From Cytophagaceae bacterium (GTDB taxonomy: Bacteria > Bacteroidota > Bacteroidia > Cytophagales > Cytophagaceae), in NCBI GenBank assembly GCA_029237685.1, contig JAQZBV010000008.1:1-43595 (forward strand): 43,595 nt of DNA, given 5' to 3'. The translations under genes and the position numbers were made by a program. Below are positions 14,348 to 43,595 of the stretch, piece after piece; the first letter of the stretch is position 1, and every line of letters starts with the position of its first letter. The notes under the pieces were generated by a model. That model worked only from the letters and a program-made list of their open reading frames with translations. It was not told the origin of the DNA and ran no database searches.

Positions 14348-14469
14348 GTCGATCGGTCTGACCCCTAAATCCCTTGAAGGGGACTTTTGAGAGCGCAGAA
14401 ACAGAGCGGAGAGCGAGGTGCCAACACTGTTTTTGTTTCTCTTTCTCTTTCTCTTTCTCTTTCTGTCTG

Positions 14470-14591: not shown

Positions 14592-14634
14592 AAGACCGCT
14601 GTAAAGAGTAATCACTTATTCAGTTAGCTCATTA

Positions 14635-14679
14635 CTGACAACTAACAACTAACAACTGATAACTAACAACTAACAACTA
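14635..14679. repeat. intergenic repeat, TTAGTTGTTAG family, copy 2
   Basis: Six near-tandem AACTAAC/AACTGAT units of seven bases reach to the stop codon of the minus-strand lipoprotein gene. Only the CTAACAA strand form is present, so unlike other copies this one does not fold on itself. Confidence 0.65.
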
Positions 14680-14681
14680 TT

Positions 14682-15272
14682 TTATATCTCAAACGTCAAT
14701 TTCTTTTTCAAACCCTGTCTGTCTTCATCACTGACTTCGGTCGTGGTTTGTATTTTTTCTAAGGATTCATTGTATTGATGTACCCAACGGTCGTATAGAA
14801 CTCTGTAATTAACCACCATGCCGTCTGCTTCACGAATGGATGTTTCCAGTTCTGCAGTAAGTGTGTAATTTTCGACCCCTTTGGTATTGCGTTTCAAGTC
14901 AAAAACTTGTCTTAATGCCTCGTCAGTTGCCTGGTCATAAGCATCTATAGCAGGAGAGGTCATCGTTTCAGGAGTATATCTTTTTTTGGATAATTCTTTT
15001 ACTAACGTAGACAATCTTTCCAATTCCTGTTCGTTGTGTCCGGGAATGTAAGAGATCTCCTGAAGCAAGCGTTCCAGGTCTTTTATCTTCTGATCATCGG
15101 AACTGATCATCATATTCCAGGCCTTAGAACAACTATCTTCTAAGGCTTGCAGATGGGCCAAAGCGGCACTGCTGGAAGGAGTTGACTTTTCCGTTTTTTT
15201 CTCACTGTTTTCTTTACAGGAAATGACAGTTAAAGCCAGTAAAAGGGCCACTAAAAAAGAGTTAATTTTCAT
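14682..15272 (-). CDS. lipoprotein of unknown function, helical
   Basis: 196 residues. A signal peptide ends in a lipobox (ALTVISC, acceptor Cys19) followed by a Lys/Glu/Ser-rich linker, so it is anchored in an envelope membrane. The rest is strongly helical (LERLLQEIS, ELERLSTLVKELSKK, ATDEALRQVFDLKRN), with no catalytic motif. The shape is reminiscent of LemA-type helical bundles, but I cannot support the family. It is divergent from the PorV/PorU operon with 120 bases between the starts, and so could share regulation with it. Confidence 0.8.
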   Translation of the reverse strand: MKINSFLVALLLALTVISCKENSEKKTEKSTPSSSAALAHLQALEDSCSKAWNMMISSDDQKIKDLERLLQEISYIPGHNEQELERLSTLVKELSKKRYTPETMTSPAIDAYDQATDEALRQVFDLKRNTKGVENYTLTAELETSIREADGMVVNYRVLYDRWVHQYNESLEKIQTTTEVSDEDRQGLKKKLTFEI

Positions 15273-15392
15273 ACGAAAACAGGTTAATTTAATGAGTAAT
15301 CTGAGGTTTAAAGAGACTCTAAATTAGGTAAATAGTTACGTTTTTGTCAAAAAATGAATATATATTTAAGTTATCTAAAAATAGCTATCCAC

Positions 15393-16481
15393 ATGAGGTC
15401 AACTATCCTGTTAGTCACAGGTTTAATCGTTTTAAGTGTTAGTGCGTCGGCCCAGATTACGGCTCCCAAATACAGTAATGAATTTTTATCCATTGGTGTG
15501 GGGGCAAGAGGCATGGCGATGTCGAATGTGCAATCTGCATTGGTCGATGATGTCACTTCAGGATATTGGAATCCTGCGGGATTGACTAAAATAAAAAACA
15601 AGTATGAAATCGCGCTGATGCACGCCGAGTATTTTGCAGGGATCGCGAAATACGACTATGGAGCCATCGCCATGAGAATCGATAGCCAAAGTACAGTGGG
15701 GCTTTCCATCATTCGATTTGGCGTAGACGATATACCGGATACCCGCTATTTGTTTGACAGTGATGGAAACAACAACGGTAAAATCAATTACAACAACATC
15801 CGATATTTCTCCTCTGCAGACTATGCCTTCTTATTGACGTATGCCAGAAAATCGAACAGGATTCAGGGCTTACGGGTAGGAGCGAATTTTAAAGTGATTT
15901 ACAGAACGGTTGGTGAATTCGCCAATGCCTGGGGATTTGGTCTGGATGCAGGTGCACAATACGAACACAAGAAATGGCAGTTTGGCTTAATGCTGAGAGA
16001 TGTGACCGGCACATTCAATGCCTGGACACATAACCCGGAATTGGTCAAAGACGTTTATGCTAAAACGGGGAATGAAATTCCTGAAAACAGTGTAGAGGTG
16101 ACTTTACCGAAAATGATTTTGGGTGTTGCCAGAACCTTTCAATTGTCTAAAAAAATCGGCTTAACGGCCAGCACGGATTTGATCTTTACCTTTGATGGGA
16201 AAAGAAATACAGTCGTGAAGAGTTCCTTTACCTCCATTGATCCGGCTGTAGGGCTGGAAGCTAATTATAAGAAGATCGTATTCCTGAGAGCAGGAATTGG
16301 AAACATTCAGCAGGTCAAGAATTTTGAAGACAAAACATATACCAGTGTACAGCCTAATTTTGGCGTAGGATTGAAAATTTACAAGTTTACCATAGACTAC
16401 GCCTTGACCAACATTGGGAATGTGTCGGAATCTTTATACTCCAACGTCTTCTCGGTTAAATTTACATTTGATTCTATTTAA
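15393..16481 (+). CDS. PorV/PorQ-family outer-membrane barrel protein
   Basis: 362 residues from the ATG on 15393, which gives a clean signal peptide (MRSTILLVTGLIVLSVSASAQ). An upstream ATG at 15354 would add 13 residues and spoil it. The mature N-terminus FLSIGVGARGMAMSNVQSAL and the SGYWNPAGL motif are the hallmark of the PorV/PorQ (UPF0164) family; the rest is alternating beta strands ending in an aromatic-poor but barrel-like strand. In T9SS, PorV carries cargo from the translocon to the sortase PorU and is essential. The PorU-family gene follows after three bases, so a PorV-like shuttle partner role is likely. PorQ or a PorV paralogue remains possible. Confidence 0.9.
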   Translation: MRSTILLVTGLIVLSVSASAQITAPKYSNEFLSIGVGARGMAMSNVQSALVDDVTSGYWNPAGLTKIKNKYEIALMHAEYFAGIAKYDYGAIAMRIDSQSTVGLSIIRFGVDDIPDTRYLFDSDGNNNGKINYNNIRYFSSADYAFLLTYARKSNRIQGLRVGANFKVIYRTVGEFANAWGFGLDAGAQYEHKKWQFGLMLRDVTGTFNAWTHNPELVKDVYAKTGNEIPENSVEVTLPKMILGVARTFQLSKKIGLTASTDLIFTFDGKRNTVVKSSFTSIDPAVGLEANYKKIVFLRAGIGNIQQVKNFEDKTYTSVQPNFGVGLKIYKFTIDYALTNIGNVSESLYSNVFSVKFTFDSI

Positions 16482-16484
16482 AGC

Positions 16485-19400
16485 ATGACAAAAAAAACAA
16501 TCTTCGCCTTCCTCTTTATTTTTACTTTTTGCTTTTCTACAGTGAAAGCGCAAGAAGGAAGAGAGTGGATTGTATCGGGACAACCGTATTATAAAATTCC
16601 GGTAGCAGAAGAAGGTGTATACCGTATACCACTTAGCGATTTGAATACTGCCGGCGTTTCTCTTGTAGATCCGTCGAAGTTGCAGATTTGGTTCCGAGGA
16701 GTGGAGCAGTCTATACAAGTAGATGCAACAGACCTTTATTTTTATGGAAAAGGCAACGACGGTACATTAGATTCTTTGCTCTACGAACCCTACACAGCGC
16801 AGTCCAATAAGTATTATAGTTTATTTTCAGATACGACCTATTATTTTTTAACGGTTGGTTCTTCCGCGGGGAAAAGATTAACGAACAATTTGCCTAATCC
16901 CACCTTGGCTCAAGCGAATCATGTGCACACAGAAACAATTTTCTATGCCGATGAATATGCATTAGGTGCTTTATACAGCGCAGATACACACTTAAGCACG
17001 GGTGATTTTGGAGAAGGCTGGGTGAGTTCGTCTATCAGTCGCGGCGGTACAGATGCTGTATCAAGAACCATTGAAATCCCAATCTCTAATTTGTACACAG
17101 GACCTACGGCAGGCAATGCAGAATTAGAAATCATGTTGGTGGGTACGAATCAAAACGGACACCGTGTGGAGATCCTGATTGGAGATCCTTCTTCACCCAG
17201 TGCTGTTTATGCCATTCCTACTAGTTTTAATGCAAGACAAAATTACAAATTTACACAGTCCTTACCATTAAATTACCTGACCAATAATCAACCCTTAAAG
17301 GTTACGGTCAGGTTGCAAGGAGGTTCGCCAAATAATCCGGACATGGTGGCACTTACTTACATCGTGCTGAAGTATCCTCAAACCACTAATCTTTCTGGCA
17401 AGAGTTTTTACTTCATCGAACCGGTGAAAGACAATGTGGCAAAGACTTTAAGCCTAAGCAATTTCACCGCCAACTCTTTTTTATGGGATCTTTCTGCGGA
17501 ATGGGCTTATGTCAACCTGACTTATAGTTTGACCGGAGGAACGGCTACTGTAGATGTATCGGGCAGTACAACAAAGATATTGTATGTAAATACATTTAAA
17601 AGCATCATCGGCATAGCGTCAGTCAACATGGATCCTTACCCGGTGTTGGCTAGTACAGACATGTTGCTGATCACACATCCGATATTATGGAGCAGTGTGG
17701 CTGATTATGTTACCTATCGACAATCCTTGGCAGGCGGTGGTATTGATATAGCGGTATCTGATGTGACTAAATTGTATAATTTGTATTCTTACGGAGAAAA
17801 GCATCCCATTGCCATCAAGCGTTACTGTAAAGAGCAGTTGAATACCGGTACGCCCAAGTATTTATTTTTAGTAGGTAAGGGGATCAATTACAATTACGAA
17901 GGCAATACCGATGAAGGTTATTTGAAATACCGTAAAAAACCGACGGCTTTCATTAACAATACCTACAGGTATCAGCAGCTCTATTACCGCATGGAAGATC
18001 TTATACCCGCTTATGGCTGGCCGGCTTCCGATCATTATTATACGATTACGGATGGTACCTTGCGTCCTAAATTAACGACCGGACGTTTGTCCGCAAGAAC
18101 CAATGCGGATGTCTTGCAATACCTGGATAAAGTAAAAGCAAATGACCAGGCACCTTCGGATGCCATCTGGAGAAAGCACCTGGTGCATTTGAGCGGTGGT
18201 AAAAATGCATCGGAAGTACAGTTGTTTGAAAATTATGTCAACGGTTTTAAGTCTATTGCTGAAGGCCCTCGATTTGGAGGGAAGGTGGTACGCAGTTACA
18301 AGAAGGACCTTACCGTGGGTGCCGTAGATACCAAGTTAATATACAGTGTGGCCGATGAAGTAAACAAAGGACTTTCTTATATTACTTTCTTTGGACATTC
18401 TTCTCCAAGCGTTATTGATTTGGATATTGGTAACGTATCCAATACTGTTTACGGATACGATAATAAAGGTAAATACCCTTTATTATTCATGAATGGCTGT
18501 CAATCCGCAGAATTTTTTATTCAGGGTTCTATACCGGAAGATTGGACGATGACACCTGAATTAGGTTCCTTGATGACGTTGGGTCATGGAGATATCGGTT
18601 ATCCTCAATACATGCAGAAGTATACCGAACTCTTTTATAAGTTTAATTTTAGAGACAACCGTTTTATCAATTCTTCTGTTGGTGATATTCAAAGCAAGAC
18701 CTTAGATACTTTTTTGACTATTTATCAATTTGACTTTAATAAAGAAATAGTAAAGGCACAGGCGACTCAATTCATCTTGCAGGGAGATCCTGCCATCAAA
18801 TTGTACAAGCCCTTGAAAACGGATTATGCGATAGCTGGTGATGGGGAAACAGGAGAGAAGAAGGTGTTTATAGCGGCCATCGGAAACGGCCCGGTCACCG
18901 CCATGAGTGATGCGTTCAATCTGGCTATTCCGATTACCAATTATGGACTGAGCGATCCGGATAGCATTCAGATCATGGTCAAGCACACGGTGACCAGCAA
19001 TGGTACGGTCACAATCAATCGCATCTATCCATTGAAAGTGATAGCACCGATTGGTTATGTGGATACGGTATATTTTACCATACCGGCAAAGGATGCGAAT
19101 CTGTTTGGTATCAACAAATTTGAAATCACGATCGATCCTAATGATTCTATCGATGAATTCAATGAGAGCAATAATATCGCTACGCTGGAATATTTTTTAT
19201 CGCTTAGTTCTGTTTCCTGTATTTATCCTTCCGAGTTCAGTGTCGTGCATGACCAGCCCGTTAATTTTGTCGCGCAGTCGATCGACTTGTTTCAGGATAC
19301 CAGAACTTACTATGTAGAGATTGATACCAGCCATTTGTACAACAGCCCGTCTAAAATCGTAAGAACCATTTCTTCCGGAGCATTGGTGAAATTTACACAA

Positions 19401-31168: not shown

Positions 31169-31241
<73 letters not shown>

Positions 31242-31255
31242 CTCTTAAATGAATT

Positions 31256-31288
31256 AAAGCCTTGTAAACTAATAGTTTGCAGGGCTTT
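31256..31288 (+). terminator. tRNA-Thr terminator
   Basis: A 14-bp stem with two G-T pairs (31256-31269 with 31275-31288; AAAGCCTTGTAAAC/GTTTGCAGGGCTTT), five-base loop, then TTCTTTTT. It isolates the tRNA from the AT-rich operon that follows. Confidence 0.9.
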
Positions 31289-31312
31289 TTCTTTTTGTGG
31301 TCAAGTAATAGG

Positions 31313-31345
31313 TTGAGTTTTATTACAGCTTTCTTACATTGTAAG
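31313..31345 (+). promoter_or_regulatory. candidate promoter/operator of the AT-rich four-gene block
   Basis: TTG at 31313-31315 is followed after 19 bases by TACATTG (31335-31341), a weaker version of the TTTG-N19-TAnnTTTG promoter. The -7 part overlaps the small palindrome CTTACA-T-TGTAAG (31333-31345), a possible operator. The first gene starts 46 bases downstream. Confidence 0.4.
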
Positions 31346-31391
31346 AGTTTTTAGTTTTTAATCTTTTTTGACAAACTTTTAATCTGGAATT

Positions 31392-32039
31392 ATGAAGTGC
31401 CCACATTGTTTAGTTGACTTTCATGATAGTCTTGAAACTATAAGTATAGGAACAGACATAGATGGATATTGGGATATTCAGTTGCGATTGTGTTCAAGCT
31501 GTAAAAGAAATATCTATCATCTTAGCAATAGTAAGTACGAATCATTAACCGGATTGACTCGTCACAAATCTACTATCTTAATTAGACCTAAAATAGCTAG
31601 TAGAACACCCGTTCCTGCCATTGTCCCTAGCGAATATTCAAATGACTATACAGAAGCGTGTTTAGTTTTAGCTGATAGTCCCAAAGCAAGTGCAGCTCTT
31701 AGTCGAAGATGTTTACAGTATATTATAAGACAAAAGCTAAATATACAAAAGCGAGATCTTGTTCAAGAAATACAAGAGGTAATAGATAAAGGTCTTCTGC
31801 CAACAGATATTCTTGATAGTATTGATGCAATACGTAATATTGGCAATTTTGCAGCACATCCTACAAAAAGTAAAAGTACTGGAGAAATTGTAGAAGTTGA
31901 GCCTCACGAAGCAGAATGGAATCTAGATGTGCTTGAAATGCTTTTTGAATATCTTTTTGTTAGACCTGATGCTATCCAGAAAAAACGGGATGCTTTAAAT
32001 GCAAAACTGAATGATGCTGGTAAAAATGATATGAAGTAG
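31392..32039 (+). CDS. zinc-ribbon DUF4145 protein, candidate defence gene
   Basis: 215 residues. The N-terminal zinc-ribbon-like pair is C3/C6 (KCPHC) and C34/C37 (LCSSCKRN). The C-terminal half, about 95-195, is a DUF4145 domain with KASAALSRRCLQYII and DAIRNIGNFAAHP. DUF4145 recurs in restriction and abortive-infection loci as an accessory or effector-linked helical domain; its activity is not known to me. It has no signal or membrane segment, so cytosolic. First gene of the AT-rich block; the next gene starts 15 bases after its stop. It could be a regulator or toxin-like RNA-binding protein. Confidence 0.82.
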   Translation: MKCPHCLVDFHDSLETISIGTDIDGYWDIQLRLCSSCKRNIYHLSNSKYESLTGLTRHKSTILIRPKIASRTPVPAIVPSEYSNDYTEACLVLADSPKASAALSRRCLQYIIRQKLNIQKRDLVQEIQEVIDKGLLPTDILDSIDAIRNIGNFAAHPTKSKSTGEIVEVEPHEAEWNLDVLEMLFEYLFVRPDAIQKKRDALNAKLNDAGKNDMK

Positions 32040-32054
32040 ATCTATTTTAAGTGT

Positions 32055-33092
32055 ATGATTAAATATTTATTGTTTTTCTTATTGATTTCAATTTCTAACA
32101 GCTTTGCCAAGACAGTTGTAGATAATACATCAAAGCTTCAAAAACAGATGGATCTGATAAGATATCGTCTTAATGAGAAGGATTCGTTAATTCAAGTTTT
32201 ATCGGACCAAACATATCATTTGAAAACAAATAATGAAATACTTTCCACTACTCTTGATGCAAACGGAAATATTTTTGATGGCTTATCTACTTATTTTACT
32301 ATTATCTCGATTTTACTTTCAATTATAGTAGTAGCGATACCTATTCTTAATTATTTCATTGTTCTTAAGCCTAATAAAGAAACTATAAAGAGATTAGAAA
32401 ATCTTGAAATTGAAATACCACAAAAAATAGAAAATGATTTTGGTAAGTATTTAGAAGGATTCGAAAAGCGCAAAGCCAAGAGTCTTATTAAGTCATTAAC
32501 AGATCCAAGTAATTTAAAACAAGTTGTTAATTTCTTTTTTTTAAGTACATTTTCTGATTTTGATGATGAGGATCAAAATATTGTTGTTTCTTTTCTAGAA
32601 AATAATAGAGAAATAGAAGAAAGTGATAGGCGTATTTTGACTTATATTTTAAGCTATAGAGTGTCACTCATTTCAGAATCTTTCTTTAAAAAAGTCATAG
32701 AAAACATGGATCCTTTAGATTATATATATGCTATAGAGTATTTAACAGATAATACTCCAGAAAAGTATATCAAATTCTGGGAGTTAGTTATTACTGCATC
32801 ACCTAAAGGCCACCATATACTTTTGGATATATTTAACCATCTTCTTCGTAATTACGTTGGAAGTCCTGTAGATAAGAAGTCTCCTGACAAAGTAACTTTT
32901 GGTAAAAAAACTATTGAGTTGTTTTTTGATAATGAAGCAATTTGTAATGCAATTGAAAATCAAAAGTTGTCAAAACATAAAGTAATAAATGGGACTATTT
33001 TAGGCTGGAATCCATTTATTAAAGATACCACCTACTATAAAAGATTTTTTAATGAAAATGGTAAAATGCATGACCATCTATTAATTGGATAG
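32055..33092 (+). CDS. membrane-anchored coiled-coil protein of unknown function
   Basis: 345 residues. N-terminal signal or anchor (MIKYLLFFLLISISNSFA), an extracytoplasmic coiled coil at about 24-65, a transmembrane helix at about 80-104 (FTIISILLSIIVVAIPILNY), then about 240 residues, mainly helical, expected in the cytoplasm. I do not recognise a family. The DNA is very AT-rich (one 60-base line at 32281 is 27% GC). Lying 15 bases after the DUF4145 gene and 16 before a small two-helix membrane protein gene, it looks like a partner of the latter, perhaps a sensor or membrane effector. Confidence 0.75.
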   Translation: MIKYLLFFLLISISNSFAKTVVDNTSKLQKQMDLIRYRLNEKDSLIQVLSDQTYHLKTNNEILSTTLDANGNIFDGLSTYFTIISILLSIIVVAIPILNYFIVLKPNKETIKRLENLEIEIPQKIENDFGKYLEGFEKRKAKSLIKSLTDPSNLKQVVNFFFLSTFSDFDDEDQNIVVSFLENNREIEESDRRILTYILSYRVSLISESFFKKVIENMDPLDYIYAIEYLTDNTPEKYIKFWELVITASPKGHHILLDIFNHLLRNYVGSPVDKKSPDKVTFGKKTIELFFDNEAICNAIENQKLSKHKVINGTILGWNPFIKDTTYYKRFFNENGKMHDHLLIG

Positions 33093-33108
33093 ATTAAAAT
33101 ATAAGATT

Positions 33109-33819
33109 ATGAGTTGGAAGGTGATATTTTTTTTAGGTTCATTCCTGTTGTTGACAATGTTTGTTTTTCTTGTTGTACATACTCAATATACTGATCATTT
33201 CGGTAGTATTAATAAATCTGCTTCAACTGAAGTATGGGGACAATACGGTGATTATATCGGTGGGTTGTTGAATCCTATATTATCTATATTTAATATATGT
33301 CTCCTAATATACTTGTCTGTGAACGTTGCAACGAACGAAGAAAGGAGAACCAAGGAAGCTAGAGAGTATGAAGAAAAAAGAAGTAGAGAAGCGATTGAAA
33401 CTCAAAAATTAATAGCATTGAATGCTTTTAGACATGAAGCGCTCAATAAATTAAGAGATCGATTAGATAGCTTTGAAGAATTCCCGGATACTTTTTCTGA
33501 CATGTTAAGAGACTATACTCATCTGTCAGATTACATTTCTAATTTTGATCTTCACTATGGATATTTATTTGGTACAGATGATTTTGGTAGAACCATTGTT
33601 GACCTAGAAGGAACATTGTCTTCAATAGTTATAAGTATAATTCCGTTCAGTAAAAGAGATGAAGAACCTGTAATTTTTCTTAATTCCGATTCTGATACTA
33701 GCGATTTTGATACACATTATACGAGGTATACGGAATTAAGATATGACCTGATTTTAATAATGCAGCTTATAATTCTTGATAAGCCATATAACAACGTTAG
33801 CGAAGATTTTAATAATTGA
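33109..33819 (+). CDS. two-helix membrane protein, putative phage abortive infection (AbiC-like) family
   Basis: 236 residues from the ATG on 33109; a TTG start at 33085 would overlap the previous gene and adds eight residues. Transmembrane helices lie at about 4-24 and 48-70. The second begins with WGQYGDYIGGLLNPIL (43-58), the signature G-x-x-GDxxGGxxNP of the 'putative phage abortive infection protein' family (putAbiC, from memory PF16872). A charged coiled coil (75-105) and a cytosolic helical domain follow. Members are linked to phage defence mainly by context; the mechanism is unknown. Next gene 25 bases on. Confidence 0.8.
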   Translation: MSWKVIFFLGSFLLLTMFVFLVVHTQYTDHFGSINKSASTEVWGQYGDYIGGLLNPILSIFNICLLIYLSVNVATNEERRTKEAREYEEKRSREAIETQKLIALNAFRHEALNKLRDRLDSFEEFPDTFSDMLRDYTHLSDYISNFDLHYGYLFGTDDFGRTIVDLEGTLSSIVISIIPFSKRDEEPVIFLNSDSDTSDFDTHYTRYTELRYDLILIMQLIILDKPYNNVSEDFNN

Positions 33820-33844
33820 TTTTTTTAATTAACAATCCATCTCT

Positions 33845-36800
33845 ATGCATTCTAATTCTGTTACTATAAAGCATATTAAATCACTTGAAGATTCAGAACT
33901 TTGTTTACTTCTAGATTTGCTTCTACATGCCGAAGCAGCAAGTTGTAATCTACAAAGTTGTGTTATTTCTGTACCTCAAAATATCAACGTTACAGATGGG
34001 GGAGAAGATGGCCGAATTACATGGGAAGGTTTGCCATTAACAACTGATAAGATTAAGAACCAATTTACAATCTTTCAATGTAAAGCAACAAAAATGTCAG
34101 CTCAGGATTGCTATGATGAAATAATAATCCAAGATGATGGCTCAGGACTAATTAAGCTTAAACCACAAATAGAAGAAGTTGTCAAGAAAAATGGTAGTTA
34201 TATTCTTTTAACCACTCAGCCATTAACTTCTAAAATAATAACTCCTAGAATTGCTAGTATTCGCAAGGCTATCCGAGATGCTCGACATGCGAATTTCGAT
34301 TCATTTAAAATTCTGTTATATGATGCCAATATTATTTGCCAATGGGTAAATAAATATACCGCAGCTGTTACATTTGTTCAAAAGTGCAATGATATTAGTA
34401 GACCTAACTCTTTTAGGACATGGGAAGAATGGCAGCGAGATATGCCAGGGGCAAACATACCTTTTCAAAGTAATGACATATTAGAAGAGTATATAAATAA
34501 TATAAGAGATACTATTGAGACAGATAAAGTAGTTAGAGTAATTGGGCCTAGCGGCCTAGGCAAGACAAGATTAGTTTTAGAGGTTTTTAGAGATGATAAA
34601 CAGAATTCAAAAATTCTTGATTTACAAAGACAATTGATTTATTGTGATTTAGGATTAACTGATGTAGAAAAGATATCAGATTATATTATATCCCATCGTG
34701 AAACTCAATCTGCTATTTTTGTATTAGATAATTGTATTGAATCATCTCATATAGTTCTGTCCCATCTTGTTAATTCTGTTGGTAACTTTAAAATAATAAC
34801 AATTGATTTTGATTCAGGAACATCTGAGAGATCAGTAATAATGCTTGATAGAAATAATCAAAAAGACATTGTTAAAAAAATTGTTCAAGACATTTTTAAA
34901 GATTCTTTGACCTCTACACAGAAGGAATTGATTGCAGAAATTTCAGAAGGATTTCCTCAAATGGCAATTATGTTTTCAGAATCAGTAAAAGCAGACGGAT
35001 GGGATGAGAGAAATAATGAATTACCTGAAGATTATTTAACAAAATTAATTTTTGCTAGACAAGATAAAAGCAATTATGATTATCATGTTATAAAAGCTTG
35101 CTCTGTTCTTTCAAGTTTTGGGTTTGTGAACGATACATTAAAATTCCTAAGTGAACCTGAACAAGCGAATTTAAAAAAGCAATCAGAATATGTACGGTTG
35201 AAAATATGCGGTTCTTTTGAGGGAAGAGAAGTTACAGACAGAGATTTTTATAGGATTTGTGAGAAGTATAGAAAATATAATATAATAGAACAACGGGGGA
35301 GGAAAATAATGGTTAAACCAACTCCACTCGCAATGAATTTAGCGGCTAAATGGTGGTTAGAAACATCCTCAGATTTCATCAAAGAAATTTTAATTGAATT
35401 GAAGGATGACGAGCTAGGTTTAAAATTTGTTGAGAGAATGCGTGAATTGGATCACATGGATAAAGCGAAATCCATTGTTAAAGAGTTATATGGCGTTGGA
35501 GGCCCTTTTGGGACAGCGGAAGTGCTTAATACAAAATTGGGTTCACTTCTCTTCCGCTATGTTGTTGAAGTGAATCCTGAAGTTACAGTTCAAGCGCTTA
35601 ATAAAGCCATAGAAAGCTTGGACAAAGCTGAAATTTTCAATTTGAAGGAAGGTAGACGCAATTTAGTATGGGCTTTGGAAAAATTGTGTTTCAGAAAAGA
35701 AACATTCGAAATGGCAGCTAAAATTCTTTACAGTTTCGCAGTATCTGAAAACGAAACATGGGGTAATAATTCGATAAATCAATTTAGTCAATTATTCCAA
35801 TCTCAACTTGCTGGCACAGAAGTGAACTTAGAAGAGCGTATTAAAATAATTAGATGGGGTTTAGAGAAGAAGGATATTGACTATACTAGAATTGCCATTT
35901 TGGCTCTTTCAAAAGGCATTCAAAGTTCTGCACGTAGAATAGTTGGTGCAGAAAGACAGGGTAACAGTGTAATATTAATAGATTATCGACCTTCCGGGAA
36001 AGAAATCTTATTATACTGGAATGAGATTCTTTCAATACTTACAACAATTGCAATTACAGATATTATTAATTCAGATTTAGCAAAGGAAAAGATTGCCTCT
36101 GCGATAAGAGTATTAATTAGAGAAGGACAGATTAGTTTAGTCGAAGAATCAATTAATACTATAATTGATAAAACTTCTAATTTATGGATTGATGCTAGCA
36201 AGGCTTTGAGAATAACATTAGCTTATGAAAAGGATTTAGGGGAAGGAATAATTCGCAGGATTGAAGTACTAATAGATAGACTTACTCCTAAAGATATAAA
36301 GAATAAAATTCTTCTAACAGTTACTAAACCTGAATGGACAAAGTACGAACCGGATTCATCTGGTAATATTATCGATCAAGCTGTTCTTAATGTTGAACAG
36401 CTTGTTAAGCAAATTATAGAAGAAAAAATAGATATTGAAGATTTTCTTGTTGATGTGCTTAAAGGCGAACAGAGGTTAGGCTTCGCTTTTGGTAAATCTA
36501 TTGGTAAGCTTGATGCAAACAGTAGGAAATTGATAGAAACAGCTTTTGATGTATTAAAAACAATTTCTTTAACTGACCAAAATCCTGAGTTTATTGCTGG
36601 TATTTTGTTTGGCTTAGAAGATCCTGAATTTTTTCGTAATAAGATTGATGAGATAATTGCTGATGAGAGGATTCGGAAACATGCGTTTTACTTTACGAAA
36701 GTTCTTAATGGAAATATTAGAGACTTAGATAAGCTGTTTGTTTTAGTTGATAAATTCGGATTATCGATTGATTGTTTTCAGGTGTTTCAATATGGACGTG

Positions 36801-37681
36801 CATTATTAGAACAACTACAAGATTCAGAATTAACCCTCTTGTGCAATCGTATCAGTCAATATGATAAACTAGGGAAATGGACAGCACTATCTATTTTACA
36901 CATGTACTGTTTTGATAATGAACCTGTATTTACTAAGAATACAGAGACCTTTGTTGCTATTATAGGAAGTGATAATATGCTGATTGATAATAGTAATAGA
37001 AATAGTGAAGTATATCATTGGTCTGATAGTGTTACTAAGATTTTATCGTTGAATAATAATAATGTCAAATTTGCGGAAACTATATCAGCACAATTAATCG
37101 AATTTTATTCTAATCATAGAATGGATTATTCAATTGATGGTTATTTAGATGATGTGATTGTATTATTGTTAGAAAAATATTTTAACGAAGTATGGCTGTA
37201 TTTCGGAGAGGCTCTTTTATATGATAGTGGAAAATACAGTTTTCATCTGGAGCATATCCTTGGAGCTAATAGTGGATTTGGTGGAATTACTCATGGCGTA
37301 GCTTTCCGTAACACTAATAATTTTCTTACAATTATGAACTGGTGTAAGAAAACTAAAGGTGCGATAGGAGCTATTGCTCGAATTATGCCTTTAATGGAAA
37401 AGAAAGATGAAGAAGTTACACTACACCCATTCGCAATTTCTTTTATAAATGAATTTGGCAATGAAGATTCAGTTTTGAGTGCAATTTCAGCAAACTTAGG
37501 TACGTTTGGATCGGTTGGATCATCTATACCATATTACAAGGATCAATTGGTTATTTTAAATGGATTAGCTGTTCATAATACTCAGAAAGTCAAAGAATGG
37601 GCTACGAAAATGATTGAATATACAAATCGATTAATTAAACGAGAAGAAATTGATGATGCTGAACGTTTTTCTTCTGAATAG
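33845..37681 (+). CDS. nuclease-STAND-type NTPase, Avs-like candidate defence protein
   Basis: 1278 residues, cytosolic. Residues 1-150 show a PD-(D/E)XK-like nuclease pattern: D51/D55 in VTDGGEDGRI and Q78-x-K80 in FQCKA. A P-loop NTPase follows: Walker A GPSGLGKT at 234-241 (K240), Walker B AIFVLDNC with D295, and a winged-helix-like region to about 480 (KYNIIEQRGRKIMVKPTP). The remaining ~800 residues lack motifs and look like an alpha-solenoid. This order is that of STAND sensors such as the Avs anti-phage proteins, where the C-terminus recognises a phage protein and the N-terminal nuclease then degrades DNA. Specific Avs type cannot be assigned. Strongly AT-rich (sample line at 36061 is 28% GC). 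Fourth gene of the block; the CapA-like gene starts 10 bases later. Confidence 0.82.
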   Translation: MHSNSVTIKHIKSLEDSELCLLLDLLLHAEAASCNLQSCVISVPQNINVTDGGEDGRITWEGLPLTTDKIKNQFTIFQCKATKMSAQDCYDEIIIQDDGSGLIKLKPQIEEVVKKNGSYILLTTQPLTSKIITPRIASIRKAIRDARHANFDSFKILLYDANIICQWVNKYTAAVTFVQKCNDISRPNSFRTWEEWQRDMPGANIPFQSNDILEEYINNIRDTIETDKVVRVIGPSGLGKTRLVLEVFRDDKQNSKILDLQRQLIYCDLGLTDVEKISDYIISHRETQSAIFVLDNCIESSHIVLSHLVNSVGNFKIITIDFDSGTSERSVIMLDRNNQKDIVKKIVQDIFKDSLTSTQKELIAEISEGFPQMAIMFSESVKADGWDERNNELPEDYLTKLIFARQDKSNYDYHVIKACSVLSSFGFVNDTLKFLSEPEQANLKKQSEYVRLKICGSFEGREVTDRDFYRICEKYRKYNIIEQRGRKIMVKPTPLAMNLAAKWWLETSSDFIKEILIELKDDELGLKFVERMRELDHMDKAKSIVKELYGVGGPFGTAEVLNTKLGSLLFRYVVEVNPEVTVQALNKAIESLDKAEIFNLKEGRRNLVWALEKLCFRKETFEMAAKILYSFAVSENETWGNNSINQFSQLFQSQLAGTEVNLEERIKIIRWGLEKKDIDYTRIAILALSKGIQSSARRIVGAERQGNSVILIDYRPSGKEILLYWNEILSILTTIAITDIINSDLAKEKIASAIRVLIREGQISLVEESINTIIDKTSNLWIDASKALRITLAYEKDLGEGIIRRIEVLIDRLTPKDIKNKILLTVTKPEWTKYEPDSSGNIIDQAVLNVEQLVKQIIEEKIDIEDFLVDVLKGEQRLGFAFGKSIGKLDANSRKLIETAFDVLKTISLTDQNPEFIAGILFGLEDPEFFRNKIDEIIADERIRKHAFYFTKVLNGNIRDLDKLFVLVDKFGLSIDCFQVFQYGRALLEQLQDSELTLLCNRISQYDKLGKWTALSILHMYCFDNEPVFTKNTETFVAIIGSDNMLIDNSNRNSEVYHWSDSVTKILSLNNNNVKFAETISAQLIEFYSNHRMDYSIDGYLDDVIVLLLEKYFNEVWLYFGEALLYDSGKYSFHLEHILGANSGFGGITHGVAFRNTNNFLTIMNWCKKTKGAIGAIARIMPLMEKKDEEVTLHPFAISFINEFGNEDSVLSAISANLGTFGSVGSSIPYYKDQLVILNGLAVHNTQKVKEWATKMIEYTNRLIKREEIDDAERFSSE

Positions 37682-37699
37682 ATATTCTAGAATGTCTAT
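37678..37699. repeat. 22-bp near-palindrome at the right junction of the AT-rich block
   Basis: ATAGATATTC-TA-GAATGTCTAT, 10-bp arms with one T/G mismatch; the core ATTCTAGAAT is perfect. It covers the stop of the STAND gene and the start codon of the CapA-like gene, exactly where base composition changes. Confidence 0.6.
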
Positions 37700-38630
37700 C
37701 TTATGTTTTTCGTTTTTTATTAATACGTTGTTATCTGGCTGTACTACGAAGGAAGAAAAATTGACCATCCTATTTACCGGTGACATGATGCTCGATCGTG
37801 GTACCAGAAAAATAATTGAACATAAAGGTGTTGATTATTTATTCGAAGAAGTAAAACCGTTATTTCTAAATCAAGACTTAGTAATCACAAATTTTGAAGG
37901 TACAGCTTGCGATAAAGGATTGACACCGTCTTCAAAAGCTTTTTGTTTCCGTACAGAACCAGAATGGATTACTAGTATAAAGAAGAATGGAATTAGTGCT
38001 GTCTGCCTGTCTAATAACCATAGTGGTGACTATGGTAAGATAGGATTATTTCAAACCGCGCAGTATCTCAATCACAATAAGATAGAAGCGTTTGGTTATA
38101 ATTTAAAAGGAGATCCATGTGCACCTTTTGTTTTAGAAAAGAATGACATAAAGCTGGCGGTATTTGGCTCTTCTTTACTGTATGAGAAAGATCCTGCCGG
38201 CAGCTGTCATGAATCAGATTCGATTCTTTGCCGACGTGTAAGTATTTTCAAGAAAGGACATCCGGATTTCCATATAGTTCTTTGTCTGCACTGGGGTATT
38301 GAAATGCAAGGCCAACCAGAGACGAAACAGGTACAACAGGCACATTCCTTTATAGATGCTGGTGTGGATCTGATTATAGGGCATCATCCGCATGTTGTCC
38401 AACCAATTGAAAAATACAAAGATAGATACATATTTTACAGCCTCGGAAATTTTATATTTGACCAGGAAAAGAGCCCGGGAAATAAAGGTATATTGAGTAG
38501 TTTTTCTGTGACGCGTTCACAAATAAGATTGGAAGAGGTAATTCCATTTAACATTATTGATTCAAAACCTATATTGATGGATCTGGGTGAGGCAAAACAA
38601 TTTCTAAAACCTTTTAACCATTCTTTGTAG
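37692..38630 (+). CDS. CapA-like (PGA_cap) metallophosphatase-fold lipoprotein
   Basis: 313 residues from the ATG on 37692, which gives a normal lipoprotein signal (ILCFSFFINTLLSGC, lipobox Cys17). An in-frame start at 37650 lies inside the previous gene and is unlikely. The PGA_cap fold motifs are FTGDMMLDRG, ITNFEG, LSNNHSGDYG, CLHWGIE and GHHPHVVQP, with YIFYSLGNFIFDQ. CapA homologues take part in poly-gamma-glutamate capsule synthesis, but no capBC genes lie here, so a capsule role is not supported; many Bacteroidota encode stand-alone members. Composition is near the genome average, unlike the gene before. Two further lipoprotein genes follow, with 10 bases to the first. Confidence 0.88.
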   Translation: MSILCFSFFINTLLSGCTTKEEKLTILFTGDMMLDRGTRKIIEHKGVDYLFEEVKPLFLNQDLVITNFEGTACDKGLTPSSKAFCFRTEPEWITSIKKNGISAVCLSNNHSGDYGKIGLFQTAQYLNHNKIEAFGYNLKGDPCAPFVLEKNDIKLAVFGSSLLYEKDPAGSCHESDSILCRRVSIFKKGHPDFHIVLCLHWGIEMQGQPETKQVQQAHSFIDAGVDLIIGHHPHVVQPIEKYKDRYIFYSLGNFIFDQEKSPGNKGILSSFSVTRSQIRLEEVIPFNIIDSKPILMDLGEAKQFLKPFNHSL

Positions 38631-38640
38631 CTTAAGATTT

Positions 38641-39201
38641 ATGCGTGTTACTTTTTACCTTTTATTTTTGTTCAGCATTCTGACAGCGTGCTCCGATCAG
38701 TCTTTTGAAAAAGAAATGATTATATCAGATGATTTCTTCAAAGGTAGCGTCTCACTGGTGAAAATGGAAAATATGAAGAAGTATAAACTTTCGATTATTG
38801 ATTCTTCAAAACAAATAGTGGATCATATCTATACACCTTACGATGTTTTTCAATTGGAAACTGGTGACATCAATCGAGACGGTAAAACAGATATTTGTTT
38901 AGGCATAATCAAGCCTACGCCTTTTGATCCTGTGTTAAAGAAAAGACTCTTTCTCTTTCAGATAGATCAGGGTTATATACGGCCTTTATGGCTCAGTTCA
39001 AGATTGGTAAATCCTATGGAACAGTTTTCTGTTGGTAAAGATAGCCTTGGCCATTCTATTATTCATACCATAGAAAATAAAGGATCAGATCTATACTGCG
39101 TTCGCACATATCAATGGGGCACATTTGGAATGTCCTATATTAATACTTCACATGATTCAATAACTTATGAAAAAGCAGAGCAAATACTTCAGGCTTATTA
39201 A
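38641..39201 (+). CDS. lipoprotein of unknown function with VCBS-like motif
   Basis: 186 residues, lipobox LFSILTAC (Cys17). The stretch LETGDINRDGKTDICLGI at about residues 77-93 resembles an FG-GAP/VCBS calcium-loop strand (GDxNxDGxxD), of the kind found in beta-propeller or repeat adhesins, but only one copy is present. Otherwise unrecognised. The gene overlaps the next by 35 bases in another frame, so translation is likely coupled. Conserved CapA/lipoprotein/DUF3160 neighbours suggest one surface function. Confidence 0.75.
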   Translation: MRVTFYLLFLFSILTACSDQSFEKEMIISDDFFKGSVSLVKMENMKKYKLSIIDSSKQIVDHIYTPYDVFQLETGDINRDGKTDICLGIIKPTPFDPVLKKRLFLFQIDQGYIRPLWLSSRLVNPMEQFSVGKDSLGHSIIHTIENKGSDLYCVRTYQWGTFGMSYINTSHDSITYEKAEQILQAY

Positions 39202-41641
39202 GCACCTTATTGTTTGTTTATTATTGATTTTCACCTGTGCTTGTTCTCAAAAAGAAGAGAAGAAGGATACAACTTCTGATCCTTACAAGCTGAACGCGCC
39301 GCTAAAGACTTATGCTTCTTACGATGAAGGTTATCCAATGACCTATAAGCCGGTTGATCCGGCTTCCTGGTATAAGACACCTGAATACCTGGATATGTAT
39401 AAAGATTTCTATTCAGATAAAGTTGCCCCTCCGCCTTTTGATTACAATGTAGATTTGTCAAAGAAGACATTTCAGGACCTAAGATTACTCCGTGCTGAGA
39501 TACTGGCGCGTCATGGTTTCTTGTTTATGGATTATGTTTCACGTTTTCATTTTAATGCCAAGAAATGGTATCAACCTGTATTTTGGGATAATAATTTCAG
39601 GATAAGCCTAAGTGAACAAGAGCAGAAATTCATTGATAAAGTTCTTAGCTATGAGCAAAAACTGTATAAGAACAATTATGTAGGCACAGGTCCTGTTAAA
39701 AAGGCAAACCTGGCTAATGTTGTGAATTGGAATCAATTTGAAAAGATCACTCCGGTCATGCTACAAAAGCTTACCTCCAATGGATTTGTTATTAATAGTG
39801 CCGCTCATGAGCAGTTATTTCACGTTTACGATCAGAACTATTACGATTATACGCCAAGCTTCATTACAACGGATCTATACCTTCAGGTCTTACACATGCA
39901 CATCAGTAAAGAAATGCAGGCACTTGAAAATAAAAAGCTGTTTCCTCTATTAGATGAATTGCTGCAAGAGCAATACGATAAGTCACAAAAGGACAATAAC
40001 GCTACTGCGCCGGTATTAAAGCAGGCCAGTGGATGGAACCAAGTATATTATGCAGTCGCTTTGTCTTTATTGAAAGGCAAGAAATATGAAGTTGCTCCGG
40101 AGTGGCAAAAAGCATACGACTACGAATACAGCCATACTGCAGAAGCGAAAGATTACAGATCCGACTTCCTAGGAGATTCTGTAATGGACTATACACAGTT
40201 CATTCCACGGGGAAACTATACAAGATCCGATTCCTTAAAACAGTATTTTAAATGTGTGAAATGGTTAAATTCCGCTTCTATATATTTGGATGATAACCAA
40301 AGCTTATCAAGAGCCGTGTTAATGGGCTATAACCTGTCTAATGATCCAAAGTCATGGAAGAATTATACTAAACTATCCGACATTATAGGCTTTCTGGCAG
40401 GGGAAGAGAATAACCTTTCCTTCTCGCATCTACACCAGGTACTGCAGAAATATAAGAACATATCCATACAGGATCTACTGTTGCCTGCTAATCTTGAAAA
40501 AATAAGACAAGAATTATACAGTAAGGATCCTCGAAAATTCGGACCGGTTGGAGTCAATGATAGGACAGATGAATTTGTTAAACGTAAAAAAATATTGTTC
40601 ACAGCGGGGCGCTATACATTTGATGCAGAGATCATGCGGAGATTGGTGCATGTTAAAGATCCAAATCCTCTGAGACCATTTCCGAAAGGGTTGGATATCT
40701 TCGCAGCTGTAGGTAATGAAACAGCAGAAGATATTCTGCTTCATACTTACAAAGAACAAAATCAATGGCCGGAGTATGAAGATGAACTCGAAAAATTAAA
40801 GGATAAGTTCACGGGGTATAACCAATGGAATACTAGCGTTTACAACAAGCAGATGGAGGCGGTGCTTTCTTTAGAGCAAACCAATAACAAAGCACCTTAT
40901 TTTATGAAGCTTCCGGCCTGGAGAAAGAAAAATCTTAATACCATGCTGGCTTCCTGGACCGAGTTGAAGCATGACATGGTGCTCTATGTAGAACAACCTA
41001 GCGGTGCTGAAATGGGTAATGGAGGAGAAGTGCCTCCACCTCAAAAGATAGCCTATGTAGAGCCTAACGTTGCTTTCTGGAATAAGTGTCTACAGCTTTT
41101 AGCCTTGAATAAACAGATGCTGGAAAAGAATGAGGTCGCTACGGATGTATTGTTATCAAGAAATAATTCGCTGGTAGAAGTAGGGCAGTTTCTACTTAGA
41201 ATCAGTGAGCAGGAATTATCAGGGAAGAATATTTCCAACAATGATTTTGATGAATTGGCTTATATCGGTGGTAAAATAGAACGTTTAACGTTGAATATCA
41301 TTGAGTCAAACGAAGGCTTCGTTTCGCAGGTTTCTACACCAGAGAAGTATGTGGCCGTTGCAACGGACGTGTACACTTACAGAGATCAATGCTTGCAGGA
41401 AGGAGTAGGGATGGCAGATGAAATTTATGTGATTGCAGAAATCAACGGTTTGTTATACCTGACTAAAGGCGCTGTATTCAGTCATTATGAATTTACCGGA
41501 CCTTCATCCGGGCGTTTGACTGATGAAGCTTGGCAGAAGCAATTACTCGATCATAAGGTTCCTAAACCCGCCATCTGGATGAATGATATTAAGATCAGCG
41601 TACCGGCTATAAAGACAGCACCTAATTTTAATTTATATTAA
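39167..41641 (+). CDS. YARHG-DUF3160 lipoprotein
   Basis: 824 residues. Signal peptide with a cysteine cluster at residues 24-26 (IFTCAC), an imperfect lipobox. A YARHG domain spans about 98-165 (DLRLLRAEILARHGFLF ... KKWYQP), then a large DUF3160 region to the end (FITTDLYLQVLHMH, FLAGEENNLSF, MLASWTELKHDMVLYVEQ). DUF3160 proteins are widespread exported proteins without a known reaction. It starts inside the previous gene and ends two bases before a terminator, so it closes the three-gene operon. Confidence 0.85.
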   Translation: MKKQSKYFRLIKHLIVCLLLIFTCACSQKEEKKDTTSDPYKLNAPLKTYASYDEGYPMTYKPVDPASWYKTPEYLDMYKDFYSDKVAPPPFDYNVDLSKKTFQDLRLLRAEILARHGFLFMDYVSRFHFNAKKWYQPVFWDNNFRISLSEQEQKFIDKVLSYEQKLYKNNYVGTGPVKKANLANVVNWNQFEKITPVMLQKLTSNGFVINSAAHEQLFHVYDQNYYDYTPSFITTDLYLQVLHMHISKEMQALENKKLFPLLDELLQEQYDKSQKDNNATAPVLKQASGWNQVYYAVALSLLKGKKYEVAPEWQKAYDYEYSHTAEAKDYRSDFLGDSVMDYTQFIPRGNYTRSDSLKQYFKCVKWLNSASIYLDDNQSLSRAVLMGYNLSNDPKSWKNYTKLSDIIGFLAGEENNLSFSHLHQVLQKYKNISIQDLLLPANLEKIRQELYSKDPRKFGPVGVNDRTDEFVKRKKILFTAGRYTFDAEIMRRLVHVKDPNPLRPFPKGLDIFAAVGNETAEDILLHTYKEQNQWPEYEDELEKLKDKFTGYNQWNTSVYNKQMEAVLSLEQTNNKAPYFMKLPAWRKKNLNTMLASWTELKHDMVLYVEQPSGAEMGNGGEVPPPQKIAYVEPNVAFWNKCLQLLALNKQMLEKNEVATDVLLSRNNSLVEVGQFLLRISEQELSGKNISNNDFDELAYIGGKIERLTLNIIESNEGFVSQVSTPEKYVAVATDVYTYRDQCLQEGVGMADEIYVIAEINGLLYLTKGAVFSHYEFTGPSSGRLTDEAWQKQLLDHKVPKPAIWMNDIKISVPAIKTAPNFNLY

Positions 41642-41642
41642 A

Positions 41643-41679
41643 AAAGAAGATTGAACGGGTATAGTTCAATCTTCTTTTA
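41643..41679. terminator. terminator of the CapA-like/DUF3160 operon
   Basis: Perfect 15-bp stem (41643-41657 with 41665-41679, AAAAGAAGATTGAAC) around a seven-base loop, with T-rich right end. It follows the stop directly and also faces the minus-strand phage-like remnants. Confidence 0.9.
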
Positions 41680-41683
41680 TTGT

Positions 41684-41895
41684 TAATGAGGTAAATTTAG
41701 CTGTGTCCTCACTTCGGTTTTAAAGTCTGCTAATTCGATCGTTTGATTTACTGTGTTTTTACCTAATTTTGTCATTTCAATAGGAGATACAGTTTTTCCA
41801 CTATTGATCCCGTCAATAACGAGCTCTGAATTACCTTTGATAAAAGTAAGTCAGGAGCATACGCGATCTTCGGCACCGCTTTACTAAAGCTATTC
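41684..41895 (-). pseudogene. decayed duplicate of the 42022-42297 phage-like gene
   Basis: Reading the minus strand, LTFIKGN...IDGINSGKTVSPIEMTKL...FKTEVRTQLNL aligns along its whole length with LTVSKGN...VEGINSGKKIPLSLMMNL...FNDEVKSSINL of the intact neighbour. A TGA at about 41851-41853 stands where the neighbour has Trp, and the upstream GVAAERERV region is garbled. Further upstream (about 41906-41970) a separate open tail reads NPFYIDFNVMKAWTKLNIEVKQ before a stop; it looks like the end of another lost gene. Start limits are approximate. Confidence 0.65.
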
Positions 41896-41961
41896 AAAAA
41901 GTTATTGTTTAACTTCAATATTTAGCTTAGTCCAGGCTTTCATTACATTAAAGTCGATATA

Positions 41962-41996
41962 AAAAGGATTAAGACCAAACAAGATCTAATCCTTTT
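41962..41996. terminator. hairpin with terminator-like form between remnants
   Basis: AAAAGGATTA (41962-41971) pairs with TAATCCTTTT (41987-41996) around 15 bases. It follows the minus-strand 42022-42297 stop by 26 bases, so it can end that operon. Confidence 0.55.
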
Positions 41997-42021
41997 CTAA
42001 GCCTGTAATTTTAGCGATGCT

Positions 42022-42297
42022 TTAAATATTTAGGCCATACTTTAGATTTATTGACGATTTTACTTCGTCATTAAATGCTGAAATTTCATCTTCGTTAGCT
42101 TTTGTTTTTTTTGTCAAATTCATCATAAGTGACAATGGTATTTTCTTGCCACTATTTATTCCTTCAACTACTACAGAAGGATTTCCTTTTGAGACGGTCA
42201 ACCATGCATCAACGCGCTCTCTTTCTGCAGCGACACCTTCTGCGAAAACTTTATCGAATAATTCTTTGTGTTGGGATTTTAGAGTTTGAATATCCAT
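42022..42297 (-). CDS. small phage-like protein with GINSGK motif
   Basis: 91 residues, complete. AAERERVDAW and VVEGINSGKKIPL resemble the C-terminal region of phage prohead protease/scaffold-type proteins (AERxRVxAW ... GIxSG), recognised from memory and without a catalytic part. Cytosolic, helical. A decayed copy lies just downstream. It starts 38 bases after the upstream gene's stop and is probably co-transcribed with it. Could be a stand-alone domain kept after loss of a prophage. Confidence 0.65.
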   Translation of the reverse strand: MDIQTLKSQHKELFDKVFAEGVAAERERVDAWLTVSKGNPSVVVEGINSGKKIPLSLMMNLTKKTKANEDEISAFNDEVKSSINLKYGLNI

Positions 42298-42335
42298 AAT
42301 TTTATAGTTTATGATTTTAATTGATGATTGATACT

Positions 42336-42932
42336 TTATTGATGTTCTTCGATTATCTCGTCTACAAGCAAATTGATTTCTGTTATTGATGAGCTTATTT
42401 TATCTTTACACTGCGAAGTATAGCGGTTTGTCAATACCATTTGATCATCGATAGATAGTGGATGCCCTAATTCATTTCTGATCGATATTTCCTTTTTAAT
42501 TATCGTCTCAAAACATTCTGAAAACACACCGATTAAATTATAGAAGACGATACTAGCGGGAATAAATCTTTGGCTGTTTTCGTTAGCAATAAGATCAACT
42601 ATTTTCTTTTCTGCATCTCTATCATAAATCATTTTTGAAAAGACATCAGTACTTTCAAAGTAGCTAAGTATATCTTCATAAATATCAACAGGCAATATTT
42701 TAATATTTTGACCCGTTGATGATTTGTGTTTTGATTGATTATCGATTAAAAGTTCTTTTTTAGAAACAATTAGATCTCGGTGTTGTTTGAAGATTATGTT
42801 TTGGGGCAGAGTATCATCAATATAGTCTCCGGTAGCGACAACCTTTCTTCTTTTAGGTCCTAAATACACAGCCAATTCCTTTGTTGTCATACCACAAAGG
42901 GCTGCAAATTCCTTCTTTTTGAGTAATGCCAT
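42336..42932 (-). CDS. phage-like protein with HTH-type N-terminus
   Basis: 198 residues from Met at 42932 (MALLKKKEFAALCGMTTKELAVYL); an upstream in-frame start at 42986 would add 18. The first 60 residues look like a helix-turn-helix followed by the basic strand GPKRRKVVATGDYIDDTLPQN. This start recalls small-terminase-like or packaging proteins of Bacteroidota prophages. The rest is helical and unrecognised. No large terminase or capsid gene is present in the window, so the role is open. Confidence 0.6.
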   Translation of the reverse strand: MALLKKKEFAALCGMTTKELAVYLGPKRRKVVATGDYIDDTLPQNIIFKQHRDLIVSKKELLIDNQSKHKSSTGQNIKILPVDIYEDILSYFESTDVFSKMIYDRDAEKKIVDLIANENSQRFIPASIVFYNLIGVFSECFETIIKKEISIRNELGHPLSIDDQMVLTNRYTSQCKDKISSSITEINLLVDEIIEEHQ

Positions 42933-43100
42933 AACTTTTGATCGTTTTAACTGAATATTTGTTGCCGTTAAATCTTCTATGGTCAACAGAATGACAACAT
43001 TAATTGAAATCCCCCGGTTCGTGTTTTTTTTCGCCGTCTGGCAGACCTTGCGTTCGTTTTTAAACCCTCCCGGAGTACCTTGGAGTATTTAGTATAAGAT

Positions 43101-43150
43101 AGTGCAGTAGTAAGCCTCTCTATAACCTTGCAAGGCTAATCTACTGCACT
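43101..43150. repeat. long stem-loop between phage-like genes
   Basis: AGTGCAGTAG (43101-43110) pairs perfectly with CTACTGCACT (43141-43150), and inside it AGCCT (43113-43117) pairs with AGGCT (43133-43137). It lies just downstream of the 43162 stop (minus strand) and is GC-richer than its neighbours. A terminator without a T-run, or a structured RNA or recombination site, are all possible. Confidence 0.55.
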
Positions 43151-43161
43151 ACTAGGATCCC

Positions 43162-43595
43162 TTAACTAAACAGAGCTACTTTATTCCTTTCAAAGAAGAG
43201 ATGATATGTAACCATAGTGTTATCAGGTTGGAATAGAAAGTAGTTATTTAGCTTTAATTCACCATTCAGCGAGACTTGGCCATTAGATACGGCTTTAAGT
43301 TCCTCATTCAATTGATTAAGCACTATTACTGCTTTTGAATAAACCTCAAGCATTTTTTCTTGTTTTTCATTTTTGCATATAATAGAAAACTCTTCTTTTA
43401 TAGACTGAAGGGAATCTTGACTAATAATAACCTTATTTCCTTTTAGTGTTAGGTAATGTAGCCATCTAAAAGAATCATCAACATATGTTCCTAATAAATG
43501 ATTGGGACCACCTTTCACATCTTTAGCTAAGTCGTTTAGCTTACTAAAGCTTGGAAGATCTAACATGTCAATAGAAACTTCTTTCTTGATTTTGA
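43162..43595 (-). CDS. protein of unknown function (partial, continues past the right edge)
   Basis: The minus-strand frame remains open to the last base (upstream residues KIKKEVSID precede the internal Met at 43566), so the start is outside the window. About 144 residues are visible: KIKKEVSIDMLDLPSFSKLN, GTYVDDSFRWLHYL, and an amphipathic C-terminus ending in LFFERNKVALFS. No signal or membrane segment. Family not recognised. Same strand and style as the two phage-like genes downstream, but separated by a stem-loop. Confidence 0.6.
   Translation of the reverse strand, partial: KIKKEVSIDMLDLPSFSKLNDLAKDVKGGPNHLLGTYVDDSFRWLHYLTLKGNKVIISQDSLQSIKEEFSIICKNEKQEKMLEVYSKAVIVLNQLNEELKAVSNGQVSLNGELKLNNYFLFQPDNTMVTYHLFFERNKVALFS

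Follow-up and report, generated by a model that had tools for sequence, protein, structure and literature searches.

Predicted defense genes beside a tRNA-Thr gene of a Cytophagaceae bacterium, including a PD-Lambda-4_A relative from a family with exchangeable N-terminal effectors

The four-gene block downstream of tRNA-Thr

The stretch of DNA analyzed here (the window) is an entire contig of 43,595 bases (contig JAQZBV010000008.1, C127 in our numbering) from a Cytophagaceae bacterium, whose genome assembly (GCA_029237685.1) comprises 4.02 Mb in 199 contigs and is 92.9% complete. A first-pass annotation, made from the sequence letters, had proposed that four adjacent genes in the window constitute one undescribed antiphage system with a DNA-cutting and a membrane-damaging arm. 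These genes, the tRNA gene to their left, and the putative effector domain of the largest gene are as follows.

31169..31242, plus strand: tRNA-Thr (TGT); homology with the same-genus genomes G002 and G003 stops at the tRNA 3′ end
31392..32039, plus strand: gene 1, 215 amino acids; zinc ribbon (C3, C6, C34, C37) and DUF4145 (HEPN superfamily); PD-T7-4 relative
32055..33092, plus strand: gene 2, 345 amino acids; hydrophobic N terminus, long helix, strong membrane helix at approximately residues 77-103, helical domain at 150-330; unnamed family
33109..33819, plus strand: gene 3, 236 amino acids; soluble part preceded by two N-terminal membrane helices; near-orphan; a TTG at 33085 could also be the start
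33845..37681, plus strand: gene 4, 1278 amino acids; nuclease-like N terminus, STAND-type nucleoside triphosphatase (NTPase), C-terminal part of ∼870 residues (likely sensor); PD-Lambda-4_A relative
33845..34414, plus strand: N-terminal effector of gene 4, residues 1-190; PD-(D/E)xK type, based on motifs

The open reading frame (ORF) coordinates confirmed that all four genes lie on one strand, with gaps of 15, 16, and 25 bases. Mean guanine-plus-cytosine (G+C) content was 31.4% across positions 31244-37681 versus 41.8% in the left flank, and genes 1 to 4 had values of 34.9, 27.5, 31.8, and 32.3%, respectively. The 60-base lines counted by hand in the first-pass annotation were correct (26.7, 28.3, 41.7, 43.3, and 48.3%), and the contrast drawn from them holds on the left. 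On the right it is modest, as the flank at 37682-43595 has a mean of 36.3%, which both right-hand lines exceed. A strict scan of the block for Bacteroidota-type promoters gave one raw match, at 37475, close to where gene 4 ends.

When the window was compared with three genomes of the same genus (G001, G002, and G003), alignment at 81 to 84% ran through a DUF349 gene and into tRNA-Thr. The alignments to G002 and G003 ended at 31243 and 31242, that is, at the tRNA 3′ end, beyond which both genomes continue with different genes; thus, the DNA to the right of tRNA-Thr is variable within the genus. The G001 alignment ended at 31227, where the G001 contig itself ends. The DNA carrying the block was probably acquired, and a role for the block in defense is likely. 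No integrase was identified among the seven window proteins scanned, and the tRNA 3′ end recurred nowhere in the window as an attachment-site repeat, the only match being the tRNA itself. No right edge of the variable DNA was seen, as the contig ends at 43595. The earlier statement that the block was acquired as a unit was rejected, the comparisons showing a left edge at tRNA-Thr and no other.

Gene 4 and its relatives

Over almost its full length, gene 4 matched the PADLOC profile for protein A of PD-Lambda-4, a system from Vassallo et al. 2022 (PDLC03991, PD-Lambda-4_A; E value, 6.2e−62; residues 9-1274 to profile positions 9-1278 of 1283). The PADLOC system also includes a B protein, whereas no match to PD-Lambda-4_B (PDLC03992) was found in this genome (92.9% complete) in a search whose control gave matches in E. 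coli. Judged by these profiles, gene 4 is a protein A relative and not a complete PD-Lambda-4.

Residues D51, G53, D55, F77, Q78, and K80 were invariant in all 33 aligned rows of the gene 4 family, these rows having been preselected as nuclease type. The resulting D...QxK motif corresponds to the conserved D...(D/E/Q)xK pattern of PD-(D/E)xK nucleases, and we take the QxK form to be of the Mrr type. The N terminus showed a mixed alpha/beta order in a confident predicted model. VIA-align returned no restriction-endonuclease row for this model, residues 1-186 of which were hardly covered, and a sequence search of the N terminus against solved structures gave three chance-level rows only. Downstream, a Walker A motif (GPSGLGKT, residues 234-241), D295/C297 at the Walker B motif, and G369xP371 were all invariant in the alignment, the GxP being a feature of STAND/NLR-like switches; the Pfam STAND match (nSTAND3) fell below its cut-off. 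The predicted model gave a P-loop fold for the NTPase, with its best structural alignments to NLR proteins: VIA-align placed NLRs at the top, tied with Cdc6/Orc1 and ClpA, and Foldseek ranked PCH-2 first and Avs4 second (E value, 3.6e−5). The nuclease-STAND label given to gene 4 in the first pass is supported, in the sense of a P-loop NTPase of probable STAND type preceded by a nuclease-type motif.

With Avs4 (PDB 8dgf), gene 4 shares a nuclease-type N terminus, a central NTPase, and a long C-terminal part, all encoded by one gene, an arrangement that PMC12931631 describes for AVAST proteins. Gene 4 superposes on Avs4 loosely, however (template modeling [TM] score, 0.31), and membership of Avs is not claimed. 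No Avs model was among the PADLOC matches at an E value of 1, and no Avs chain in the PDB was matched by sequence at the same threshold. Relatives of gene 4 were absent from the viral contigs searched.

One profile scan of species genomes, using one short pattern, yielded 55 gene 4 loci, which are a sample rather than a census, with flanks of up to 10 kb where contigs permitted. A motif script assigned 36 of their N termini to a nuclease type, 8 to a hydrolase type, and 1 to a metallophosphatase type and left 10 untyped. Six of the latter were typed by eye, namely, L032 as nuclease, L022 and L030 as hydrolase, and L025, L026, and L031 as TIR-like, whereas L035, L052, L054, and L055 remained untyped and are broken or short. 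In total, 51 of the 55 were typed, into four effector types. In a Pfam run on nine relatives, an alpha/beta-hydrolase family exceeded the cut-off in L021, L027, L029, and L030 and fell just below it in L048, and a calcineurin-like phosphoesterase exceeded it in L057. The CAP12-type TIR family did not reach the cut-off in L025 or L031 and was missing from L026.

A tree was built by a quick method from 51 cores with their N termini removed (the window plus 50 others, excluding the four untyped sequences and the split L051). The gene 4 core grouped among Bacteroidota rows, in keeping with a Bacteroidota host. Mapping the effector types onto this tree required 4 changes, where the minimum for four types is 3 and shuffled labels gave a mean of 13.3; well-supported branches forced 3 nuclease-label and 2 hydrolase-label changes. 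As far as these sequences indicate, the N-terminal effector is exchangeable among relatives while the core is kept, as would be expected of a sensor switch. Neither effector exchange in PD-Lambda-4_A nor this combination of genes is described in the titles and abstract openings retrieved by a limited set of word searches in an open-licence library. Separately, a split form of the family was observed in two Flavobacteriaceae-like genomes, G752 and G760 (L127 and L128). Their first ORF (∼485 amino acids, its start cut off) appears TIR-like by eye and is matched by the gene 4 profile; the second (∼657 amino acids) corresponds to the C-terminal half and is followed by an ORF that is HsdR-like by eye.

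The neighborhoods of the 55 loci were searched for the remaining genes of the block, using a profile for gene 2 and the sequences of genes 1 and 3 against their ORFs. No relative of gene 1, 2, or 3 was present at any of them, nor at five further loci (G024 and four Flavobacteriaceae-like genomes, with flanks mostly of ∼1.5 kb). No same-strand ORF of at least 100 amino acids lay within 60 bases of the gene 4 relative at 51 of the 55 loci. The large protein matches a known family, PD-Lambda-4_A, whose sampled relatives mostly have no tight same-strand partner; together with the lack of co-occurrence, both outcomes that the first pass had named as refuting its proposal were obtained within the reach of the sampled collections. 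The other four relatives lay no more than 60 bases from another same-strand gene, some of these restriction-like by eye, and at L003 a methyltransferase-like ORF comes after the relative. Of 135 neighbors, 92 were scanned with PADLOC, the remaining 43 being mostly short, although some were long. Three of the 92 matched each of the Gabija-, OLD-, and AriA-like, HEC-01A, and mads models, and two matched type IIG models. At L006, a second large protein (14285-18205) adjoins the gene 4 relative, and its N terminus matched the PADLOC model Aga_REase (E value, 1.5e−21).

Genes 1 to 3

Gene 1 was confirmed as a zinc-ribbon DUF4145 protein by a match to Pfam PF13643 (E value, 1.4e−14) and a CxxC...CxxC pattern; it also carries the sequence RNIGNFAAH at residue 148. 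According to PMC3710099, DUF4145 is a member of the HEPN superfamily and has ties to restriction and abortive-infection genes. Residues 2-161 matched the PADLOC model for PD-T7-4 (E value, 8.6e−20; profile positions 15-159 of 211), with which gene 1 shares both the zinc ribbon and DUF4145. Relatives of PD-T7-4 often overlap an integrase, according to Vassallo et al. 2022 (PMC9519451), whereas none was found among the scanned window neighbors of gene 1. Among 299 Flavobacteriaceae-like genomes, three had relatives of gene 1, and a search of 58 other genomes related to this one gave none. The one in G611 matched PD-T7-4 (E value, 1.1e−23), and relatives of genes 2 to 4 were absent from all three gene 1 loci. 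The possibility that gene 1 is a mere regulator was rejected.

Gene 2 came near the cut-off of no Pfam family. Its own family has 15 listed proteins, including that from the window, and UniRef names one of them 'Phage abortive infection p...'. The AlphaFold2 model had a predicted local distance difference test (pLDDT) score of 78 overall and of ∼86 to 97 per ten-residue block from residue 141 to 300. Foldseek found nothing for this model at an E value of ≤0.001, the best rows being helical-repeat proteins, and the sequence matched no solved structure. A single-sequence scan of the genome contigs gave 52 pattern matches and no relative; viral contigs contained none, and tblastn against plasmids gave no match. 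With a profile, five of 395 genomes of the class matched: this genome, G369, and weakly G087, G233, and G349, the last three being excluded from the count. Of 397 genomes sampled as Flavobacteriaceae-like, two matched, and both were kept. None of the three gene 2 loci contained relatives of genes 1, 3, or 4. In G572, the relative is flanked, at distances of 19 and 0 bases, by two genes that look core metabolic by eye. In G519 (L116), a distant relative sits beside SduA (Shedu) and Abi_alpha in a small defense island, and that in G369, also distant, lies amid small ORFs without assigned function.

For gene 3, a single other protein was found (36% over 44% of the query). The form beginning at the TTG start matched phrog_8999 (E value, 1.6e−13; residues 20-103). 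No relatives were found in viral contigs, and tblastn against phages gave no match. Its N-terminal membrane hairpin is shared with plasmid proteins, one of which is annotated 'putative phage abortive infection protein'. The putAbiC-type label of the first pass could not be upheld: PF16872 lies in the C-terminal residues 224-301 of the annotated protein, and gene 3, sharing the hairpin alone, had no match to it up to an E value of 5. Gene 3 was accordingly rejected as a putAbiC member.

Independent genes or one system

Tight packing and a shared low G+C content had suggested one new system. The packing continues past gene 4, however, through three further genes on the same strand with gaps of 10, 10, and −35 bases.

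37692..38630, plus strand: CapA/PGA_cap gene (PF09587; E value, 9.7e−62), outside the defense block
38641..41641, plus strand: gene for 186 amino acids and YARHG/DUF3160 gene (PF11369; E value, 3.2e−145), forming a trio with CapA, outside the defense block

This trio is syntenic in G010, on a separate contig with different neighbors (65.6% over 38247-41640). Elsewhere in the window, 6 of 13 same-strand neighbor pairs lie no more than 25 bases apart, in a hand-picked ORF list. Packing by itself would draw in the CapA trio, so it is no proof of one system. The DUF3160 gene is directly followed, at 41642-41678, by a likely terminator, an inverted repeat whose 15-base arms match perfectly around a loop of 7 bases. 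Three minus-strand ORFs at the contig end (42022-43593; G+C content, 31 to 34%) are perhaps phage-like by eye.

The comparative neighborhoods, in which the combination occurred at 0 of 55 gene 4 loci, 0 of 3 gene 2 loci, and 0 of 3 gene 1 loci within the collections sampled, point to independent genes. We therefore favor, with a probability of about 0.72, the reading that the block is a cluster of separately acquired, independent defense genes beside tRNA-Thr and that gene 4 would act alone. The C-terminal part of gene 4 would recognize a phage protein, the STAND-type ATPase would then assemble into an oligomer, and the N-terminal nuclease-like domain would cut DNA; the infected cell would probably die or be arrested, the outcome reported for Avs1 to Avs4. 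That this protein senses phage, as the first pass had it, is retained as probable. For gene 1, a second, independent module of the HEPN type (PD-T7-4-like) is predicted, and genes 2 and 3 may each encode a further stand-alone membrane module of the abortive-infection type, the function of gene 3 being the least certain.

Some observations weigh against this reading. The fold matches of gene 4 to NLRs tie with other AAA+ rows. One of the 4 effector changes rests on L057, which has a long branch and an uncertain placement, and the count without it is 3. In addition, the closest relatives of the block's proteins are known only as proteins.

A smaller partnership, in which the products of genes 2 and 3 work as a pair of membrane effector proteins and genes 1 and 4 are independent, is unlikely. 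Genes 2 and 3 both encode small helical membrane proteins and are separated by 16 bases, and the UniRef name of one gene 2 relative and the hairpin that gene 3 shares with a putAbiC protein would suit such a pair, but no gene 3-like ORF occurred at the three gene 2 loci, and gene 2 has 14 listed relatives against one distant relative for gene 3. We also regard as quite improbable a reading of gene 4 as a restriction enzyme that depends on DNA modification (Mrr/McrBC-like) instead of an NLR-like switch that senses a protein. The QxK motif of the Mrr type, the methyltransferase-like ORF at L003, the occasional restriction-like close neighbors, and the type IIG matches in 2 of the 92 scanned neighbors would agree with such an enzyme. 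The same NTPase and C-terminal core, however, bears hydrolase-, TIR-, and phosphoesterase-type domains in relatives, which better fits a signal-sensing core, and the best structural alignments are to NLRs, albeit tied.

One four-gene system, with gene 4 sensing phage and cutting DNA, genes 2 and 3 as a membrane-damaging arm, and gene 1 regulating or cutting RNA, retains a very small probability, since no genomic position could be assigned to the closest relatives; the common strand, short gaps, low G+C content, and membrane helices of genes 2 and 3 speak for it, but the combination never recurred in the sampled loci, gene 3 has hardly any relatives, the PADLOC systems matched by genes 1 and 4 are not the same, equally tight packing runs on into the unrelated CapA trio, and the G+C contents of the four genes differ.

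Beyond the reading of independent genes, a broader proposal can be made tentatively, at somewhat less than even odds. The PD-Lambda-4_A core may represent a second line of NLRs in bacteria, similar to Avs: a single protein working without B, in which three or four swaps have placed a DNA nuclease, a lipase-like hydrolase, a TIR-like domain, or a metallophosphoesterase on one phage-sensing half; gene 2 would, in addition, represent a new family of lone-gene membrane defense proteins that slip between core genes. The part worth following is this widespread, NLR-like core, whose N-terminal effectors are interchangeable. If the proposal is true, the C-terminal half should recognize a single class of phage protein regardless of the effector attached, so that chimeras could serve to map the sensor and a comparison with the Avs proteins could be drawn.
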